From contig NZ_CP166625.1 in NCBI RefSeq assembly GCF_041320595.1, forward strand, positions 3,594,001-3,658,000: a stretch of 64,000 bases of DNA, in the 5' to 3' direction. The notes beneath the pieces were generated by a model. The model was not told where the DNA came from. It was given only the letters and a program-made list of their open reading frames with translations, and ran no database searches. This document shows, piece after piece, positions 8,953 to 49,054 of this stretch; within the stretch, counting starts at the first letter, position 1; each line of letters starts with the position of its first letter. A program made the translations under genes and the position numbers. The stretch is from Pleomorphomonas sp. PLEO. GTDB taxonomy: Bacteria; Pseudomonadota; Alphaproteobacteria; Rhizobiales; Pleomorphomonadaceae.

Positions 8953-11130
8953 TCACTGATTGGCTGTTACGTCGACGTTCAGGACCCGGATGAGGTCGTT
9001 CGGTTTATCGGTATTGACCTTCTCGAGCTCGGCAAAGGGAACCGGCTTTTCCGGCGCGATCGTCAGGGTTATCGACTTCGGATCCTTGATGAAATCGGTG
9101 ATCGGTCCCTCGAACTTCGCTTGCAGTTTTGGATCGTCAAGGAAATTCAACATCAGCGGCAGAGCGCCAGCGGTGTTCTGGCGGAATTTCTCGCCATCCT
9201 GATCAAGCTTTTTCGCCTGCGCCTCGAAGGCTTTCTCGACGATGCCGCTATTACCATAGGTGAGCGAAGCGGAAACCAGCGTCGCCTCGTTCATGCGCGC
9301 TTCCATTTCATCTGGCTTTTCGACCAGCGACAGTGGCAGGCCGCCGAGATGTAAGTCAGCGGAAATAAGGCCCATGTTGGTTGCCTTCAGGGTGAGGTCC
9401 TCGAGCCAGAGATCGCCCTTTTCGGCATCATAGGTCAGCGTCATGCCACCGGACAAATCGAGAGTGTCATATCCCATTGCTGTGAGTTCGGAGACCAGCG
9501 TCTCATCGGACAGCAGCGACACCGGCAGCGACAGCGAGGTGAACGTGAAGTCGCCTCGCTGGGGCAGGGTGCCCAGATAACTGCCACTGGTGAGGGCGAG
9601 CGAATCGAGCCCCACCGACCCGAGTGGCGATTCGATCGACAGCGCGCTGAGCTCGACAAATCCGAATGACGTGCCGCCGTTGACAATGGCGTCATGCATC
9701 GCCTTGCCGGAGGGTTGCTTGCCTTCGGAGGCGTTCATGCCGAGTTCCATAAGGGAGGCGAGAGAGCCGAAACGAATATCCTGCAGGGTCAGCAAGGACA
9801 GGCTGAATTTTGACGATGCCGCCTTGGAATCGGCCGTGATGTCGCGCAGCGTAAAGGCACCGATGCCATTGCCATCAAGCCCGTTACCATCGAAGCGGTT
9901 GATGGCAAGATCCAAACTGTCTCCTGCCTTGACCTCCAGCTTATTGGCCTGGACGAAATCCACACCCATGAGCTGGGTGTAGTTGGGCAGGATGGTGGAA
10001 ACGAATGAGAGGGGATCGGCCTCTATGCGCTTGGGATCATCAAGCGCCTCCGCCACCAGCTTCACCAAAGGTTGGCCGGTCTGACGCATGAATACGTTGT
10101 TGGCTTCGATGTTGCCGATGCTGGCAGTTGCCCCATCGAAGGCGAGCACAACGTTGTTGACGCCATACTGCGAATAGATGGTGCGCACCTTGCCGTCGCC
10201 TGCGCCGCCCACATACTTGGATGGGTCGAGAGTTTCCAGCGCCGCGCCGAAATCCATGCCGATGACGTAGGTACTGTCGATTGTCATCGACTTCAGCGGC
10301 GACGTCTCGTCCTTGGGCTTTTGCTCCGCCGAGTTGATGCCCGCCCTCTCGACACGTCCTTCGTGCAGGCCGGACAGGTAAGCCAGCGAATAGGTGGTGA
10401 TGGAGTCACCCTCGGTCATGCCGCTGGTTTCTATCTGGACGTTGTTCATCTCCGCCCAGTCGGCCCGAATACCTGTCGTCCACGTCGCATAGCTGAAAAT
10501 CTTCTCGTAGAGCGGACGGTCTGCCGGCAGAGCCTTCGGCGGCGGCGGAAACACCAAGCGTTCGACGAGCAGGGTTTCCGCCGACAGGGCGTAGTCGACC
10601 ACCGGCGGCCGCGTGGTCTCTGCGTCGGCCTTGGATTTCTCGGAGGGCGGCGAAGCATCTCCGTCGGTGTGGGTGTCACCACGGCTCTCTTGGGCCTTGT
10701 TGACCGGCTTTTGCTTCGTCGAAGGTAAAGGTACCTTGTCGAGTTCTTTGTTGGCGCCGGCTTCCAGCGCGGCCAGACCAGGGAACCATTTGCCAACGTC
10801 CAGACGGATGTCAACACTGTAGCTGGAGCCGCGAATGGCGTGGGCGGCGAAGGCGCCGCCCGGTGCAGTCCGCGCATCTTCGACCGACAATTCGTCGAAA
10901 TGGACGGCGATGAGATTGTCGTCGATGTCGCCGAAAGTGACGTCATCCAGCGTTACTGTTTGTGTCGCTGGATCGAAACTGCTGGTACCGATGGTGACCG
11001 GCAGTCCGAACGCAGCCGAGGCGAGCCATTCTCGGACCAGGGTCTCCCGCGGCGTTTCCGCCTGGGCAAGCGAGGGGCAAGCAAGTGCAGCAAACGCGGC
11101 AACTACGCCAAGCGAAGCGCTGGTCCTCAT
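8953..11130 (-). CDS. Exported protein of unknown function, large paralogue
   Basis: I do not recognise this 725-residue protein. It starts with a clear Sec signal peptide (MRTSASLGVVAAFAALA then CPSLAQA), placing it in the periplasm or outer envelope. The ATG at 11130 has a GGGAGG ribosome-binding site; upstream codons in the open frame are not needed. A low-complexity Lys/Asp/Ser/Pro region lies around residues 145-185. The last 230 or so residues are homologous to the C-terminal half of the next gene upstream. Shared elements are MGYDTL, GALPLMLNF, a FIKDPKSITLTI stretch and the C-terminal DVTANQ. The pair is probably an operon. No catalytic motif or metal site is obvious. Confidence 0.85.
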   Translation of the reverse strand: MRTSASLGVVAAFAALACPSLAQAETPRETLVREWLASAAFGLPVTIGTSSFDPATQTVTLDDVTFGDIDDNLIAVHFDELSVEDARTAPGGAFAAHAIRGSSYSVDIRLDVGKWFPGLAALEAGANKELDKVPLPSTKQKPVNKAQESRGDTHTDGDASPPSEKSKADAETTRPPVVDYALSAETLLVERLVFPPPPKALPADRPLYEKIFSYATWTTGIRADWAEMNNVQIETSGMTEGDSITTYSLAYLSGLHEGRVERAGINSAEQKPKDETSPLKSMTIDSTYVIGMDFGAALETLDPSKYVGGAGDGKVRTIYSQYGVNNVVLAFDGATASIGNIEANNVFMRQTGQPLVKLVAEALDDPKRIEADPLSFVSTILPNYTQLMGVDFVQANKLEVKAGDSLDLAINRFDGNGLDGNGIGAFTLRDITADSKAASSKFSLSLLTLQDIRFGSLASLMELGMNASEGKQPSGKAMHDAIVNGGTSFGFVELSALSIESPLGSVGLDSLALTSGSYLGTLPQRGDFTFTSLSLPVSLLSDETLVSELTAMGYDTLDLSGGMTLTYDAEKGDLWLEDLTLKATNMGLISADLHLGGLPLSLVEKPDEMEARMNEATLVSASLTYGNSGIVEKAFEAQAKKLDQDGEKFRQNTAGALPLMLNFLDDPKLQAKFEGPITDFIKDPKSITLTIAPEKPVPFAELEKVNTDKPNDLIRVLNVDVTANQ

Positions 11131-30437: not shown

Positions 30438-31235
30438 TCAGCGATAAGGAGCAGCTCGCCGGAACCATTCGCTTTTCTGGAGACGCCGCAGTGCTTCAAG
30501 GTCGATGTCGCCAACGATGAGGTCTGGCGCCGCGCCGCCCATGGCGACGATCCGGCCGAGGGGACCAACGATAACGGAATGCCCGTCATCCTTGGGTATC
30601 GGGTAATTGGCGACAGCGATTGCCATGACGGTTTCGAAGGCCGTGGCACGTATGCCGCACAGCCGCACGTCGCCGATTTCGGGCTCGTCATGAAGCAGGC
30701 AGCTGTTGGGAACGAGGACTACCTCGGCGCCCTGTCGGACGAGATCATCCGCTACATCGGAGTATTCGCGGTCCATGCAGATCATGATGCCGACAGAGAC
30801 CTTGCCAGCCTTTGTTGAGAGACGAACCACTGCCGAACGGTCGCCGGCGGCGCAGGCCTCCTCCGGTGCGCCAAAAAAACAGATGTGGCGCTTGCGCTGG
30901 TGGAGAACGATGTCGCCCACGGCATCAATCAACAAAGCCGCGTTGAATGGCTTAGGCGTAGCGCGCTCGAGCAATGTTGCCACGACGGCAACACCGTGCC
31001 GGTGGGCAGCGGAGCGGAACCGATCGACGAAACCGCTATCGAGCGGCTTGGCAGCGTCGATCCAAGCAGCTCGGTCGGCTTGGCTCGCAGGATCGAAGGG
31101 TGTGTAGCCGTTGGAATACATTTCAGGGAAGACGACGATGTCGGCGCCCTCGCCTGCCGCCCGGCCAATGATAGCCTCAATGTCACCGCCGGCTGACACT
31201 TGTGCCAGAGCAATGCGCAATAGGCCGTCGGTCAT
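30438..31235 (-). CDS. Carbon-nitrogen hydrolase (nitrilase superfamily)
   Basis: The 265-residue protein has the complete nitrilase-superfamily triad: Glu in VVFPEMYSNGY, Lys in HQRKRHICFFG and Cys in IMICMDREYSD. It hydrolyses an amide or N-carbamoyl bond; the substrate is not readable. The ATG at 31235 is preceded by GGAGGGAAGGG. It lies 48 bp downstream of the dioxygenase gene on the same strand, so the two may be co-transcribed. It is convergent with the DeoR gene. Confidence 0.9.
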   Translation of the reverse strand: MTDGLLRIALAQVSAGGDIEAIIGRAAGEGADIVVFPEMYSNGYTPFDPASQADRAAWIDAAKPLDSGFVDRFRSAAHRHGVAVVATLLERATPKPFNAALLIDAVGDIVLHQRKRHICFFGAPEEACAAGDRSAVVRLSTKAGKVSVGIMICMDREYSDVADDLVRQGAEVVLVPNSCLLHDEPEIGDVRLCGIRATAFETVMAIAVANYPIPKDDGHSVIVGPLGRIVAMGGAAPDLIVGDIDLEALRRLQKSEWFRRAAPYR

Positions 31236-43493: not shown

Positions 43494-44174
43494 ATGCCGA
43501 AGCCTAGGATATTTGCCGAATACGAGGGACAGCCGGTCGAACCCGACCCGAACTGTGGTTTGTGCCCGCGCCTTGTCTCCTTCCGAAACGACCAGCGTCT
43601 TGCGCATCCCGATTGGTTCAACGCACCGGTTCCGACCTTCGGGGACTCCAACGCGCGCCTCCTGATCGCGGGGCTCGCCCCTGGTCTCCGCGGTGCCAAT
43701 CGTACGGGAAGGCCGTTTACCGGCGATTATGCCGGCGATCTTCTCTACGAGACCATGCTCGACTTTGGCTTTGCGAGTGGGGTCTATCGGGCAGACCCCA
43801 ACGACGGTTTCAAACTCGTCGACGCCGCCATCAGCAACGCGGTGCGTTGTGTGCCACCAGAGAACAAGCCGACAACCGACGAGATCAACACCTGTCGGCG
43901 CTTCTTTGCTGCGACAATGGCAGGCTTCTCGCGGCTTTCCGCCATCTTGGCCCTAGGCAAGATCGCCCACGACCAGCTGCTGAAGACGCTTGGGGTACCA
44001 CTTGCCCGTCACAAATTTGCCCATGGCGCCGTACACACGCTCGACTGTCTGCCCGGCGTTCGCCTTTACGACAGCTACCACTGCTCGCGATACAACACGA
44101 ACACCGGCGTGCTGACAACCGAGATGTTTCGCTCGGTCTTCGCCGCCGTACGCCGGGATCTCGACGGTCGCTGA
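43494..44174 (+). CDS. Family 5 uracil-DNA glycosylase (UDGb type)
   Basis: The roughly 226-residue protein shows the UDGb hallmarks: the Cys-containing start CGLCPRLVSFR, motif A LLIAGLAPGLRGANRTGRPF then TGDYAG, and motif B with SYHCSRYNTNTGVL. The cysteines (CGLC, VRC, DCLP) fit an iron-sulfur cluster. It removes uracil and related lesions from DNA. The start is uncertain: ATG 43494 and ATG 43476 are both in frame. Confidence 0.88.
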   Translation: MPKPRIFAEYEGQPVEPDPNCGLCPRLVSFRNDQRLAHPDWFNAPVPTFGDSNARLLIAGLAPGLRGANRTGRPFTGDYAGDLLYETMLDFGFASGVYRADPNDGFKLVDAAISNAVRCVPPENKPTTDEINTCRRFFAATMAGFSRLSAILALGKIAHDQLLKTLGVPLARHKFAHGAVHTLDCLPGVRLYDSYHCSRYNTNTGVLTTEMFRSVFAAVRRDLDGR

Positions 44175-44201: not shown

Positions 44202-47200
44202 TCAGGCCAACTCGACATCGACTACGCCATCGACCGCCCGGAGCGCACCGGCTAGCTGTGGTGATACCCGATAGCCGCCCGGCAATTTCACCTCCACCTC
44301 GCCCCGCCCGCGATCGCCGAGCACGATCAGTGACACATCCCCCTCCCCGCCCGGCCTCAGCACATCACGGAGCGCGGCAAGCGGCTCAACGCCGCGCAGG
44401 AAGATCCGAAGAGCGTTTTGTAATTTGCCTGCCGCCTGATCGAGAGGCTCCACGGAATCGATGCGCACCGAGATGCCTTCCGGCTTGTCCTCGGCATTGA
44501 CGAGCAGGATAACTGACTGTCCGGGTTCGAGAAGGCTTCGGAAATGAGCAAGTCCCTCCGAGAAGATCACGGCTTCATACTGTCCGGTGGGATCTGAAAT
44601 GCCGATGATGCCCATTTTGTTGCCGGTGCGAGTCTTGCGCTCCTGCTTGGCGACGATGGTGCCGGCAAGACGACCGGCCGCGGCCCCTCTCTTCACCGAG
44701 GCTGAGAACTGAGCCCATGTCTGCACCCTGAGGCGGCCAAGAAGCGCCTCGTAGGCGTCGAGAGGATGGGCGGACAGATAGAACCCGATTGCCGTGTGCT
44801 CGCGCTGCAGCTTTTCTTCCGGTAGCCAGTTAGGGACAGATGGAAGGCGAACGGGTTCCGGTTCGCCACCGCCACCGAACAGCTCGTTTTGGCCAGTCTC
44901 TTGCTGTTCTAGCCGATGGGCGGCAGCGGCCATCACGCCCTCGAGCCCTTGAAACATCTTGTTCCTGTTAGCTTCCAGACAATCGAAGGCACCAGCCGCG
45001 GTCAGCGCTTCGAGAATGCGCTTGTTCATCGCCTTCGGATTGATGCGGCTGGCGAAATCAGAGACTGATCGGAACGGCTTGTTGCCCCGCTGCTCGACGA
45101 TATGTTCGACGGCCGCCTGGCCGACGCCTTTGACGGCGGCAAGCGCATAGAGAATGTGCTTGCCATCCACCTCGAACACCACATCGGATCGGTTGACCGA
45201 GGGCGGTTCGACAGTGATACCCAGGCGGATCGCCTCGCGCCGGAAGTCGTTGAGCTTATCGGTATTAGTCAATTCGAGCGTCATGGACGCCGCCATGAAC
45301 TCAACAGGGTGGTTGGCCTTGAGATAGGCGGTCTGGTAGGCGACCAGCGCGTAGGCAGCGGCGTGGCTCTTGTTGAAGCCGTAGTCGGCGAACTTGGCCA
45401 GGAGGTCGAAAATGGTATCGGCGAGCGCCTTGTCGATGCCGCGTTCGACAGCGCCATCGACGAAGCGGACTCGCTGCTTGTCCATCTCCGCCTTGATCTT
45501 CTTGCCCATGGCGCGGCGCAACAGGTCGGCTTCGCCGAGCGAATAGCCTGACAGGATCTGGGCGATCTGCATCACCTGCTCCTGATAGACGATGATGCCG
45601 TAAGTCTCCTTCAGCACCGGCTCGATAGAGGAGTGCATATAGTCAGGCTTCTCGAGGCCGAACTTTCGGGCGCCGTAGACGGGAATGTTGGCCATGGGAC
45701 CAGGCCGATAAAGCGCGACGAGCGCGATGATATCCTCAAAGCGGTCCGGCTTGATGTCCGAGATGGCCTTGCGCATGCCCATGCTTTCCAGCTGGAACAC
45801 GCCGACCGTCTCGCCATGGGTCAGCAACTCGTAGGTCTTGGGATCATCGAGCGGCAACGCCGACAGGTCGATCTTCACCCCCTTGCGCTCGATGAGGTCG
45901 ACGGCGCGCCTCAGCACCGTCAGCGTTTTGAGGCCGAGGAAATCGAACTTGATAAGGCCGGTGCTTTCTACCCACTTCATGTTGTACTGGGTGACCGGCA
46001 TGTCCGAACGCGGGTCTCGATAGAGAGGCACCAGTTGATCGAGCGGTCGGTCGCCGATCACGATACCGGCGGCGTGCGTCGAAGCGTGGCGGTAAAGGCC
46101 TTCGAGCTTGATCGAGATGTCGATCAGGCGGTCCACGACCGGGTCTTCGCGTGCCTCCTTCAGCCGAGGCTCATCTTCCAGCGCCTGCCCGAGCGTCACC
46201 GGATGAGCGGGGTTCTGAGGTACCAGTTTGCAGAGCTTGTCGACCTGCCCATAGGACATCTGCAGCACGCGGCCAACGTCGCGTAATACGGCACGCGCCT
46301 GAAGCGACCCGAAGGTAATGATCTGCGCCACCTGGGTGCGGCCATACTTGCCCTGGACGTAGCGGATCACCTCTTCGCGGCGGTCCTGGCAGAAGTCGAT
46401 GTCGAAGTCCGGCATCGACACGCGCTCGGGGTTGAGGAAGCGTTCGAACAGCAGGGCGAACCGCAAGGGATCGAGATCGGTGATGGTGAGCGAGAAAGCC
46501 ACCAGCGAGCCTGCGCCCGAACCGCGGCCTGGCCCGACAGGAATGCCGTGCGCCTTGGCCCATTTGATGAAGTCGGCCACGATCAGGAAGTAGCCGGGAA
46601 ACTTCATGCCGGTGATGATGCCCAGCTCGAATTCCAAGCGCTTATGATAGTCCTCAAGCGTTAGTCCGGGGGCAAGACCATGGCTCTCGATACGACGAGC
46701 GAGTCCCTCCCAGGCCTGACGAGCAAGTTCGGCCGCCTCGGCCGCCTCGGCCGCCGCGACGTCGTCAACGTCGGCTCCGGCAAAGCGCGGCAACAGCGGT
46801 TTGCGCTTTGGCGCCCTGACGGTACAGCGTCGGGCGATCTCAATGGTGTTTTCCAGCGCTTCCGGCACATCCGCGAACAGCGTCTGCATTTCGGCGCGCG
46901 ACTTGAAATAATGCTCCTCGGTCAGACGGCGGCGATCGTCCTCGGCGACCATGCGCCCTTCGGAAATGGCGATCAGCGCATCGTGGGCTTCGTAGTCGGC
47001 GCGCGTCGGAAAATAACACTCGTTGGTGGCGACAAGCGGCAAGCCGCGCGCATAGGCGAGCTCAACGAGATGTGGCTCGACCATCACCTCCTCGGGCGTG
47101 CCGTGCCGCTGCAGTTCGACGTAGAGGCGGTCGCCAAATAACTGTTCAAGCAGCGCAAGGCGGCTTTCGGCCTGTGGCATCAGCCCCGCGGCGATTGCCT

Positions 47201-47660
47201 TGTCGACCGGACCGCTAGGACCGCCCGTCAGTGCGATGATTCCACCGGTCAGCCCTTCGAAACGGCCGATCGGCAAATTGGCGGCAGCGCCGGGTTCCGA
47301 TTCCAGGAAGGAGCGCGACATCAGCACCGTGAGGTTGGCGAAACCTTCCGCCGTTGCTGCCAGGAGCACGATGGACGGCAGCGCCTGCGGCAGTCCGCCC
47401 GGTCGGCGGCGGTCGGTGCTATCATCCCCGAAATCGACGGCCATTTGGCAGCCGATGATCGGCTGCAATCCCTTCTCGATGGCCTTCTCGGAAAATTCGA
47501 GGGCGCAGAAAAGATTGCCAGTGTCGGTAATCGCCAGTGCCGGCTGGTTGTCAGCCAAGGCAAGCTTCAGCGCCTTGACGAGGGGAAGCGCCCCTTCAAG
47601 AAGCGAATAGGCGCTGTGAACGCGCAGGTGAATAAAGCCAACGTCGCCGATCATCGCCAT
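44202..47660 (-). CDS. dnaE: DNA polymerase III subunit alpha
   Basis: The 1152-residue replicative polymerase has an N-terminal PHP domain (FIHLRVHSAYSLLEGALPLV), the catalytic region (GPGRGSGAGSLVAFSL and MPDFDIDFCQDRR with the two catalytic Asp), a helix-hairpin-helix region (YALAAVKGVGQAAVEHIVEQ), an OB fold and a C-terminal domain. Several in-frame starts are possible; I chose the ATG at 47660. The SOS-controlled small-protein gene ends 129 bp upstream in the same direction. Confidence 0.96.
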   Translation of the reverse strand: MAMIGDVGFIHLRVHSAYSLLEGALPLVKALKLALADNQPALAITDTGNLFCALEFSEKAIEKGLQPIIGCQMAVDFGDDSTDRRRPGGLPQALPSIVLLAATAEGFANLTVLMSRSFLESEPGAAANLPIGRFEGLTGGIIALTGGPSGPVDKAIAAGLMPQAESRLALLEQLFGDRLYVELQRHGTPEEVMVEPHLVELAYARGLPLVATNECYFPTRADYEAHDALIAISEGRMVAEDDRRRLTEEHYFKSRAEMQTLFADVPEALENTIEIARRCTVRAPKRKPLLPRFAGADVDDVAAAEAAEAAELARQAWEGLARRIESHGLAPGLTLEDYHKRLEFELGIITGMKFPGYFLIVADFIKWAKAHGIPVGPGRGSGAGSLVAFSLTITDLDPLRFALLFERFLNPERVSMPDFDIDFCQDRREEVIRYVQGKYGRTQVAQIITFGSLQARAVLRDVGRVLQMSYGQVDKLCKLVPQNPAHPVTLGQALEDEPRLKEAREDPVVDRLIDISIKLEGLYRHASTHAAGIVIGDRPLDQLVPLYRDPRSDMPVTQYNMKWVESTGLIKFDFLGLKTLTVLRRAVDLIERKGVKIDLSALPLDDPKTYELLTHGETVGVFQLESMGMRKAISDIKPDRFEDIIALVALYRPGPMANIPVYGARKFGLEKPDYMHSSIEPVLKETYGIIVYQEQVMQIAQILSGYSLGEADLLRRAMGKKIKAEMDKQRVRFVDGAVERGIDKALADTIFDLLAKFADYGFNKSHAAAYALVAYQTAYLKANHPVEFMAASMTLELTNTDKLNDFRREAIRLGITVEPPSVNRSDVVFEVDGKHILYALAAVKGVGQAAVEHIVEQRGNKPFRSVSDFASRINPKAMNKRILEALTAAGAFDCLEANRNKMFQGLEGVMAAAAHRLEQQETGQNELFGGGGEPEPVRLPSVPNWLPEEKLQREHTAIGFYLSAHPLDAYEALLGRLRVQTWAQFSASVKRGAAAGRLAGTIVAKQERKTRTGNKMGIIGISDPTGQYEAVIFSEGLAHFRSLLEPGQSVILLVNAEDKPEGISVRIDSVEPLDQAAGKLQNALRIFLRGVEPLAALRDVLRPGGEGDVSLIVLGDRGRGEVEVKLPGGYRVSPQLAGALRAVDGVVDVELA

Positions 47661-47789
47661 GTTCCGATTGGAAGCCGATCCACCACATCGGATCGGCGAA
47701 GACAGGCTACCCCATCCAGCCAAGCGATCGGAGTGTTTTCGTGGAAAGGCTTGCGACTTGTGGAAAACTCACCCCGTCCATCCCCAAGC

Positions 47790-48092
47790 TCAAACCAATA
47801 TGTCAGCCGAACTCAATATCAGCACCAGCATGGTGCCGAACAGGACCAGGGCGCCAAGGGCCGCTACATCGCGGACGATAGCTGCCGAGGCAATCGCCGA
47901 GGCGAGGCGCTCGCGCGGCGATAGCGTGAAATCGCGCACCGTAGGCATCGATTCACGCGAAAATCCGGGCAAAACCTGAGCAGAGCCCGACAATGATCTT
48001 TTTTTGTTCTGGGTCGGTGGCGCCTGATTGTAGCGAATACCGACCACACACTCGATTTCCCTGATGGAAAACTTGGCATTTATGACAGGCAT
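47790..48092 (-). CDS. Small C-tail-anchored membrane protein, predicted SOS-regulated
   Basis: I do not recognise this 100-residue protein. Its N-terminal 75 residues are hydrophilic and basic. Residues about 76-98 form one transmembrane helix (VAALGALVLFGTMLVLILSS), leaving almost nothing beyond it, so the bulk should face the cytoplasm. A GGAGGCGAGG ribosome-binding site precedes the ATG. A near-consensus promoter with a LexA box between -35 and -10 lies just upstream. This setting recalls SOS-induced small inner-membrane proteins such as SidA of Caulobacter or TisB of E. coli, but there is no sequence match I can claim. An internal ATG at 47948 would give a 52-residue form. Confidence 0.6.
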   Translation of the reverse strand: MPVINAKFSIREIECVVGIRYNQAPPTQNKKRSLSGSAQVLPGFSRESMPTVRDFTLSPRERLASAIASAAIVRDVAALGALVLFGTMLVLILSSADILV

Positions 48093-48104
48093 CCTCGCCT
48101 CCGT

Positions 48105-48150
48105 GTTCCCTGTTATTCCCTATAATGTTCCGCCTTTGTTCTGTTGTCAA
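48105..48150 (-). promoter_or_regulatory. Sigma-70 promoter with LexA (SOS) box
   Basis: On the minus strand, TTGACA (48150-48145) and CATTAT are separated by 17 bp, a near-consensus promoter. Between them lies GAAC-N7-GAAC (48141-48127), the alphaproteobacterial LexA box. Two further 11-bp-spaced elements, TTCC at 48116-48119 and GTTC at 48105-48108 on the plus strand, extend the array. Confidence 0.75.
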
Positions 48151-48271
48151 GCATGCCCTTAACCTAGATCAAAATACGATAGTTCTTGTAACGTTCACGT
48201 GCGTATGAGAAGGATTCGCGCGTATGGAAATAGGGAATCGTTAGGTCGAAATAGCCGCCGGAGGAGCTTGC

Positions 48272-49054
48272 ATGCGCATCGCCACCTGGAACATCAACGG
48301 TGTCCGCGCCCGGATTGAGACGGCATCGGCCTGGCTGGAAAAAAGCCGTCCCGATATTGTTTGCCTTCAGGAGATCAAGTGCGTTGACGAGGCCTTCCCG
48401 ACCGAACCGTTCGAGCGCCTTGGCTATAATGTAGCTCTGAACGGCCAGAAGGGCTTCAACGGCGTAGCCATTCTATCCCTGCTACCACTCGAAGAGGTTC
48501 GGCGTGGTTTACCGGGAGACGACGAGGACATTCAATCGCGCTACATTGAGGCGGTAGTGTCCGTGCCGAGCGGCAGTTTGCGCGTTGCCTCCATTTATCT
48601 TCCCAACGGCAATCCGCCGGACAGCGACAAATACCCCTACAAGCTCGCCTGGATGGAGCGCCTCAAGCGGTATGCCGCTGGCCTTCTCAGGCTTGAGGAA
48701 GCTACCCTGCTTTGCGGGGACTACAATATCATTCCCGAGCCGCGCGACTGTCATGACCCCGCGGTCTGGGCTGGTGATGCGCTATTCCTGCCGCGGAGCC
48801 GGGCCGCCTACCGGTCGATCGTTAATCTAGGCTGGACGGATGCTTTGCGCTCCGTCGATGACCGGCCGGGGCGCTACACCTTCTGGGACTATCAAGCGGG
48901 CGCGCGGCAGAGGAATTGGGGAATCCGGATCGACCATGTCCTGGCATCTCCCCAAGCGGCAGATCGAGTCGCCGGAGTCGAAATCGAGGACGACGTCCGC
49001 GATTGGGAAAAGCCATCCGACCATGTGCCGGTGGTGGTCGAGATCAGGGTATAG
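48272..49054 (+). CDS. xthA: Exodeoxyribonuclease III
   Basis: The 260-residue AP endonuclease/3'-exonuclease repairs abasic sites. It shows the N-terminal RIATWNINGVRAR, the LQEIKC motif with the metal-binding Glu, LLCGDYNIIPEP, and the C-terminal RIDHVLASPQ and SDHVPVVVEI motifs. A GGAGGAG site precedes the ATG. It is divergent from the SOS-regulated gene, with the LexA array about 130 bp upstream. Confidence 0.95.
   Translation: MRIATWNINGVRARIETASAWLEKSRPDIVCLQEIKCVDEAFPTEPFERLGYNVALNGQKGFNGVAILSLLPLEEVRRGLPGDDEDIQSRYIEAVVSVPSGSLRVASIYLPNGNPPDSDKYPYKLAWMERLKRYAAGLLRLEEATLLCGDYNIIPEPRDCHDPAVWAGDALFLPRSRAAYRSIVNLGWTDALRSVDDRPGRYTFWDYQAGARQRNWGIRIDHVLASPQAADRVAGVEIEDDVRDWEKPSDHVPVVVEIRV

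Follow-up and report, generated by a model that had tools for sequence, protein, structure and literature searches.

An earlier interpretation of this DNA, made from the letters alone (the sequence-only reading), had placed a small gene 129 bp ahead of dnaE and in the same direction, and this arrangement is indeed what we find in the window, i.e., the whole stretch of 64,000 nucleotides of the Pleomorphomonas sp. PLEO genome that was analysed. The gene, which we describe as SidA-like, occupies positions 47790..48092 (stop codon included) of the minus strand and encodes a protein of 100 amino acids. It is followed on the same strand by dnaE (44202..47660, ATG at 47660), coding for the alpha subunit of the replicative DNA polymerase III, which was identified by the equivalog model NF004226 with a score of 1457.5 bits (cut-off 1002). 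The divergent neighbour, located at 48272..49054 on the plus strand, is xthA, coding for exodeoxyribonuclease III (TIGR00195, 261.1 bits with a cut-off of 182.55).

Full-length homologues of the 100-aa protein, 49-82% identical to it, are present in 11 relatives, and the named records that contain one belong mostly to Pleomorphomonas. The dN/dS ratio versus the window gene is 0.14-0.37 in the nine pairs of equal length (loci L016 and L018 were left out because their length differs). In the C-terminal half of the gene dN is 0.009-0.172 versus a dS of 0.64-0.96, and therefore purifying selection is strongest on the helix module described below. The start codon is conserved among the homologous loci together with a GGAGG-like site, in agreement with the good ribosome-binding site noticed earlier. 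Conservation of the frame in relatives, one of the checks proposed by the sequence-only reading, rules out an accidental ORF, and judged by these comparisons the ORF at 47790-48092 is a real gene under purifying selection.

The protein can be divided into an N-terminal extension (residues 1-49) and a conserved C-terminal module (residues 50-100). The part of the gene coding for this module, PTVRDFTLSPRERLASAIASAAIVRDVAALGALVLFGTMLVLILSSADILV, which contains the membrane helix, lies at 47790..47945 on the minus strand and is supported by the structure model and by profile A2, which represents the C-terminal module. Residues 1-75 contain 11 K/R and 6 D/E, the most hydrophobic 19-residue stretch corresponds to residues 76-94, and AlphaFold2 models a helix at residues 59-99 (block mean pLDDT of 91-94 for residues 71-90); all three agree with the previously proposed layout of a basic N-terminal part and one C-terminal membrane helix. 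A single inner-membrane helix is thus a prediction for the C-terminus of the protein, where the helix sequence is IVRDVAALGALVLFGTML. The rest of the model contains little besides a low-confidence hairpin (4-10/13-19), and its overall mean pLDDT is 61 and pTM 0.31. The N-terminal extension, consisting of this low-confidence beta hairpin and a linker, evolves faster than the helix module and may have a role in tuning stability or localisation. Scans of the 100-aa protein with Pfam and NCBIfam returned no family at E up to 1, and this includes the SulA domain of the FtsZ-binding SOS inhibitor SulA; scans of the related peptides described below with Pfam, NCBIfam and PHROGs returned no usable match (best E 0.16-0.32). 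The suggestion that the protein belongs to an unknown family holds insofar as there is no usable Pfam or NCBIfam model for it, but its C-terminal core is recognised by a profile built from micropeptides.

Upstream of the gene, a promoter-like sequence TTGACA-17-CATTAT with 10/12 matches is found at 48122..48150 on the minus strand. Taken alone, this match is not significant, one such site being found by the promoter scan versus a shuffle mean of 0.6; its TTGAC, though, is invariant in the alignment of 12 homologous loci, i.e., all loci with a full-length homologue, the window included. The promoter spacer is filled by LexA box 1, GAACAAAGGCGGAAC (48127..48141, minus strand), an exact match to GAACN7GAAC kept in 12 of the 12 loci, so that the earlier proposal of a LexA box inside the promoter is upheld. 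LexA box 2, GAACGTTACAAGAAC (48182..48196, minus strand), is also exact and is located 55 bp upstream of box 1; it had gone unmentioned in the sequence-only reading. Both boxes are present at this same distance in 11 of the 12 loci, while locus L017 of Oryzibacter contains the promoter box only. The idea that box 2 is a site of xthA only was rejected, as L018 has both boxes and no xthA was found in its 3 kb upstream. Between the two boxes, the sequence TTTGATCTAGGTTAAG at 48158-48173 (minus strand) is identical in 10 of the 12 aligned loci; it is perhaps an FNR/FixK-like site.

Boxes with at most one mismatch occur in the window at chance frequency (47 found versus 52 expected), and therefore the case for the box rests on its position and conservation. 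Three more exact GAACN7GAAC matches are located in the window at 9733-9747, 30824-30838 and 43539-43553. In the whole 5.48-Mb genome the strict form GAACAWWNNNNGAACA has nine sites versus none for the reversed pattern; one of the nine is the box of the 100-aa gene, and for seven of these nine strict boxes no tie to a known gene was found. The lexA gene of the same genome is preceded by GAACACACACGGAAC, and GAACATATAGAGAAC is located 27 bp before the start of imuA (imuA and imuB were identified by eye and by their position before dnaE2 in the order imuA-imuB-dnaE2, without a family scan). LexA sites of the CTGT-N8-ACAG type were also considered and rejected, since the genome-wide search with CTGTATATATATACAG, allowing up to three mismatches, gave one palindromic place versus two and two for the controls. 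Control of the gene by LexA as a part of the SOS response is, at the level of sequence, well supported by the conserved GAACN7GAAC motifs, and the presence of two boxes suggests tight repression. The earlier description of the product as an SOS-controlled small membrane protein is, as far as can be judged from sequence, in line with the boxes at this gene, lexA and imuA and with the helix model.

A direct protein search of 199 genomes of the order reached only seven of them, including G124 (locus L008), which looks like a chance match. Profile A2 matched 19 of the 20 genomes of Pleomorphomonadaceae, the family that holds the window genome and the 13 other genomes classed in its genus; the twentieth, G058, contains a divergent frame of 116 aa (L137), and a LexA box occupies the same position there. 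Among 397 genomes of the order, the same profile gave 51 matches at E<=0.01, 32 of which are weak and lie outside the family. Eleven of these non-family loci were fetched and contain short ORFs such as MTAYIRDVAALGALMLFIAMVSLWSDLLVHVV. Nine of the 11 are located directly before dnaE, and the remaining two lie in a prophage-like region. We regard the fact that weak sequence matches fall before dnaE as strong evidence in itself. Profile A3, applied to the whole class, gave 12 weak matches outside its own genome.

The relationship is also seen from the side of the short peptides. A profile of 21 hand-picked and hand-trimmed non-family peptides found the window protein with an E of 9.1e-8, the next best of 1373 frames having 0.45, and when two peptides from A2-matched genomes were omitted, the remaining 19-peptide profile gave an E of 1.8e-7 for the window protein and 0.65 for the next best frame. 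When 3811 frames of 159 class regions were searched with the 21-peptide profile, 22 ORFs were obtained at E up to 5. Upstream of these, 19 exact boxes and one with a single mismatch were found, the two ORFs without a box being weak and antisense; the 12 top-ranking ORFs, for which E is at most 0.12, are all boxed, 11 exactly and one with one mismatch. The features shared by the peptides are (K/R/Q)D, then AA, a Phe or Gly in the helix and then, often, W-x-(D/E); the Trp after the core is present in many short peptides and absent from the window's family. The likeness to the short peptides thus appears to lie in specific residues, beyond hydrophobicity alone.

Searching for homologues by position upstream of dnaE had been recommended by the sequence-only reading. 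The regions surveyed were picked by dnaE similarity alone, so their selection is independent of peptide sequence; the survey left out order genomes whose dnaE match was weaker than E 1e-45 (258 of 297) and class genomes in which it was weaker than 1e-30 (301 of 385), and a second class set comprised 80 regions from among the matches listed (287/299 genomes at E 1e-8). The rule demanded an exact box followed by a transmembrane (TM) ORF of 20-130 aa starting within 130 bp. Such a combination was found in 9 of the 11 family regions and in 26 of the 31 regions of other Hyphomicrobiales, which by our count represent 21 genera, so that the numbers are not independent, several regions sharing one genus. 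In the rest of the class, it was found in 10/79 and 9/80 regions (19/159), and 11 permuted half-sites gave at most one region in any group. The peptides behind the boxes are mostly about 30-40 aa long and contain a single helix.

By this rule, the combination of exact box and TM ORF was absent from five of the 31 order regions (L101, L136, L147, L180, L181) and from 140 of the 159 class regions. An ORF with a one-mismatch box is present in L180 and L181, as well as in L173 of the class set; in L118 the ORF that goes with the box is below the hydrophobicity cut. Two regions of the family lack an exact box on the survey strand: that of G155, which has GAACN6GAAC, and that of G095 (L006/L036), whose homologue points away from dnaE and is equipped with two exact LexA boxes separated by 21 bp. 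A search with GTTC half-sites, which detects the motif on the opposite strand, was positive in 4/31 order regions, all of which have the GAAC box too, and gave a box with a TM ORF in 1/80 class regions.

The dnaE-linked micropeptides of Hyphomicrobiales with LexA boxes (e.g., those of L040-L044, L047, L138, L140, L143, L151) contain a core similar to (I/V)RDxAALxALxxFxxM, as does the window protein, and share with the window gene both the LexA box and the place before dnaE; unlike the window protein, most of them have no N-terminal extension. Thus, by helix core, box and position, the window protein can be assigned to this family of micropeptides. In G223, which belongs to another family, L183 encodes a protein of 93 aa in which a basic N-terminal extension is combined with a helix of the same type; its gene lies behind a LexA box and before dnaE, and the extension probably arose independently.

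Related peptides are also found in prophage-like regions. In the same-genus genome G203 (L039), the peptide is located beside a phage excisionase of family phrog_1300 (E 1.5e-29), and in L045 and L046 its neighbours are a repressor of phage type (phrog_8) and a single-strand binding protein (phrog_44), assigned by scanning the proteins of L045. The IMG/VR contigs L199 and L200 encode a peptide of the L045/L046 type with similar neighbours; the peptide frame of L199 is identical to that of L046, and the two may be the same prophage. The closest exact box of L045, L046 and L199 is about 650 bp upstream of the peptide, and no exact LexA box was found in 3 kb of L039 or in 13 kb of L200. A profile search of viral contigs confirmed none of 30 stretches matching the pattern. 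A DNA-pattern match in L201 was rejected as probably due to chance, as the frame around it has 96 aa and its hydrophobic part is longer.

What could be the function of the gene? We think it quite probable that its product is an SOS division inhibitor of the SidA type with an N-terminal extension, controlled by LexA and acting on FtsW/FtsI/FtsN. The short members of the family are little else than a helix, and therefore the action common to all of them should run through the helix in the membrane. The LexA boxes, together with the likely kinship with SidA, make binding to FtsW, with FtsW/FtsI/FtsN being held inactive, the most likely action. In such a scenario, LexA bound at the two boxes would keep the gene off in vivo. 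Damaged DNA would activate RecA, causing self-cleavage of LexA and induction of the protein, whose C-terminal helix would insert into the inner membrane, leaving the N-terminal part on the cytoplasmic side. The helix would then dock on FtsW, within FtsW/FtsI/FtsN, and division would be blocked by keeping septal wall synthesis inactive until repair is accomplished. Among the points against a SidA-type reading is that short hydrophobic helices can resemble each other by chance.

Alternatively, the protein could be an SOS membrane-active peptide of the TisB kind, which lowers the membrane potential and growth and does not have the divisome as its target. A single hydrophobic helix, the LexA boxes and a possibly toxic product held off by two of them would fit, but the conservation of specific residues (RD, AA, G, F, TM) goes beyond what hydrophobicity would require and members of the genus share a conserved N-terminal extension, which makes this unlikely.

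The gene could also be an SOS leader or partner gene that carries transcription into dnaE and raises the level of the replicative polymerase after damage. In most fetched loci it precedes dnaE in the same direction, and read-through is possible because no terminator was found in 47600-48320. However, the protein sequence is under purifying selection, and the related peptides of the prophage-like regions have no dnaE in the stretch examined. The spacer before dnaE contains a DnaA-box-like sequence, TTTTCCACA (47759..47767, minus strand), which is conserved in the spacer alignment of relatives and suggests separate control of dnaE. The motif TTWTCCACM is present within 400 bp upstream of dnaE in 6/11 family, 4/31 order and 28/159 class regions, versus 0, 0.05 and 0.65 in simple shuffles of the respective regions; on the other strand it is found in 0, 1 and 19 regions. 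Since the gene of G095 is not codirectional with dnaE and the spacer contains this site, dnaE is probably under its own control. Read-through into dnaE after damage is possible and appears to be secondary, and we consider a leader function improbable. Equally improbable is an SOS membrane adaptor with another target (a protease adaptor, a replication or repair tether, a regulator of DnaE), which would agree with the linkage to dnaE and with the cytoplasmic extension in the window's family but not with the short peptides, which are nearly devoid of a cytoplasmic part, so that the helix should carry the common function.

Returning to a division inhibitor of the SidA type, the wider family of micropeptides at the dnaE locus is, in our opinion, a more interesting result than the long SidA-like variant itself. 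SulA is responsible for the SOS division block of enteric bacteria, and to our knowledge its equivalent in most Alphaproteobacteria outside Caulobacter is unclear so far; genes of 30 codons are usually left unannotated in genomes. We lean, with some reserve, towards the view that SidA belongs to a family of SOS micropeptides of Alphaproteobacteria, mostly unrecognised and encoded just upstream of the replicative polymerase gene; in Pleomorphomonadaceae the peptide would have become a longer protein controlled through two LexA boxes, and temperate phages would carry copies with the potential to halt host division. If so, the sequence core and the fixed place before dnaE provide a route to the SOS division inhibitor in genomes, the division checkpoint would thereby be linked to the replicative polymerase locus and the sequence variety of the peptides could reveal the residues that contact FtsW.

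Several known systems may be compared with the one proposed here. DidA of Caulobacter, like the proposed window protein, is a small damage-induced division inhibitor with a single helix (PMC4211646); it is a 71-aa protein that binds FtsN and is SOS-independent, being controlled by DriD, whereas the window gene has conserved LexA boxes. YneA of Bacillus, described as acting on FtsW (PMC13396833), and SosA of Staphylococcus are SOS-induced small membrane division inhibitors, again like the proposed window protein. They come from another phylum and have a different anatomy; YneA contains a LysM domain, which the window protein does not have, as no Pfam domain was found in it.

The closest counterpart is SidA of Caulobacter crescentus, described as an SOS-induced protein of 29 aa that is located in the inner membrane and has FtsW as its target (PMC4211646) and, in a 2026 paper, modelled with low confidence on TM7 of FtsW (PMC13396833). 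According to the gene numbers given in the published sources, Caulobacter sidA is CCNA_02004 (PMC10769358), dnaE is CC1926 and recN is CC1983 (PMC1839093), the latter corresponding to ccna_02062 in the newer numbering (PMC12700426). The offset of 79 for recN, less the genes annotated only in the newer numbering, would place dnaE at about CCNA_02003-02005, i.e., beside sidA, and we infer from these locus numbers that Caulobacter sidA adjoins dnaE. A literature search, mostly outside subscription journals, found no report that connects the region upstream of dnaE with sidA or with any small SOS gene. The sequence-only reading had regarded the product as longer than SidA and distinct from known SOS membrane proteins. 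The first is correct, SidA having 29 aa, close to the 30-40 aa of the short relatives of the window protein, and the window protein itself having 100 aa and an N-terminal extension; the second is probably wrong with respect to SidA, since the helix core matches SidA-sized, dnaE-linked peptides with LexA boxes. SidA is controlled by LexA and has a single inner-membrane helix, and both properties are predicted for the window protein. The two proteins were compared by size, regulation and locus, and on the size and regulation of SidA and the inferred place of its gene they are likely to be kin.
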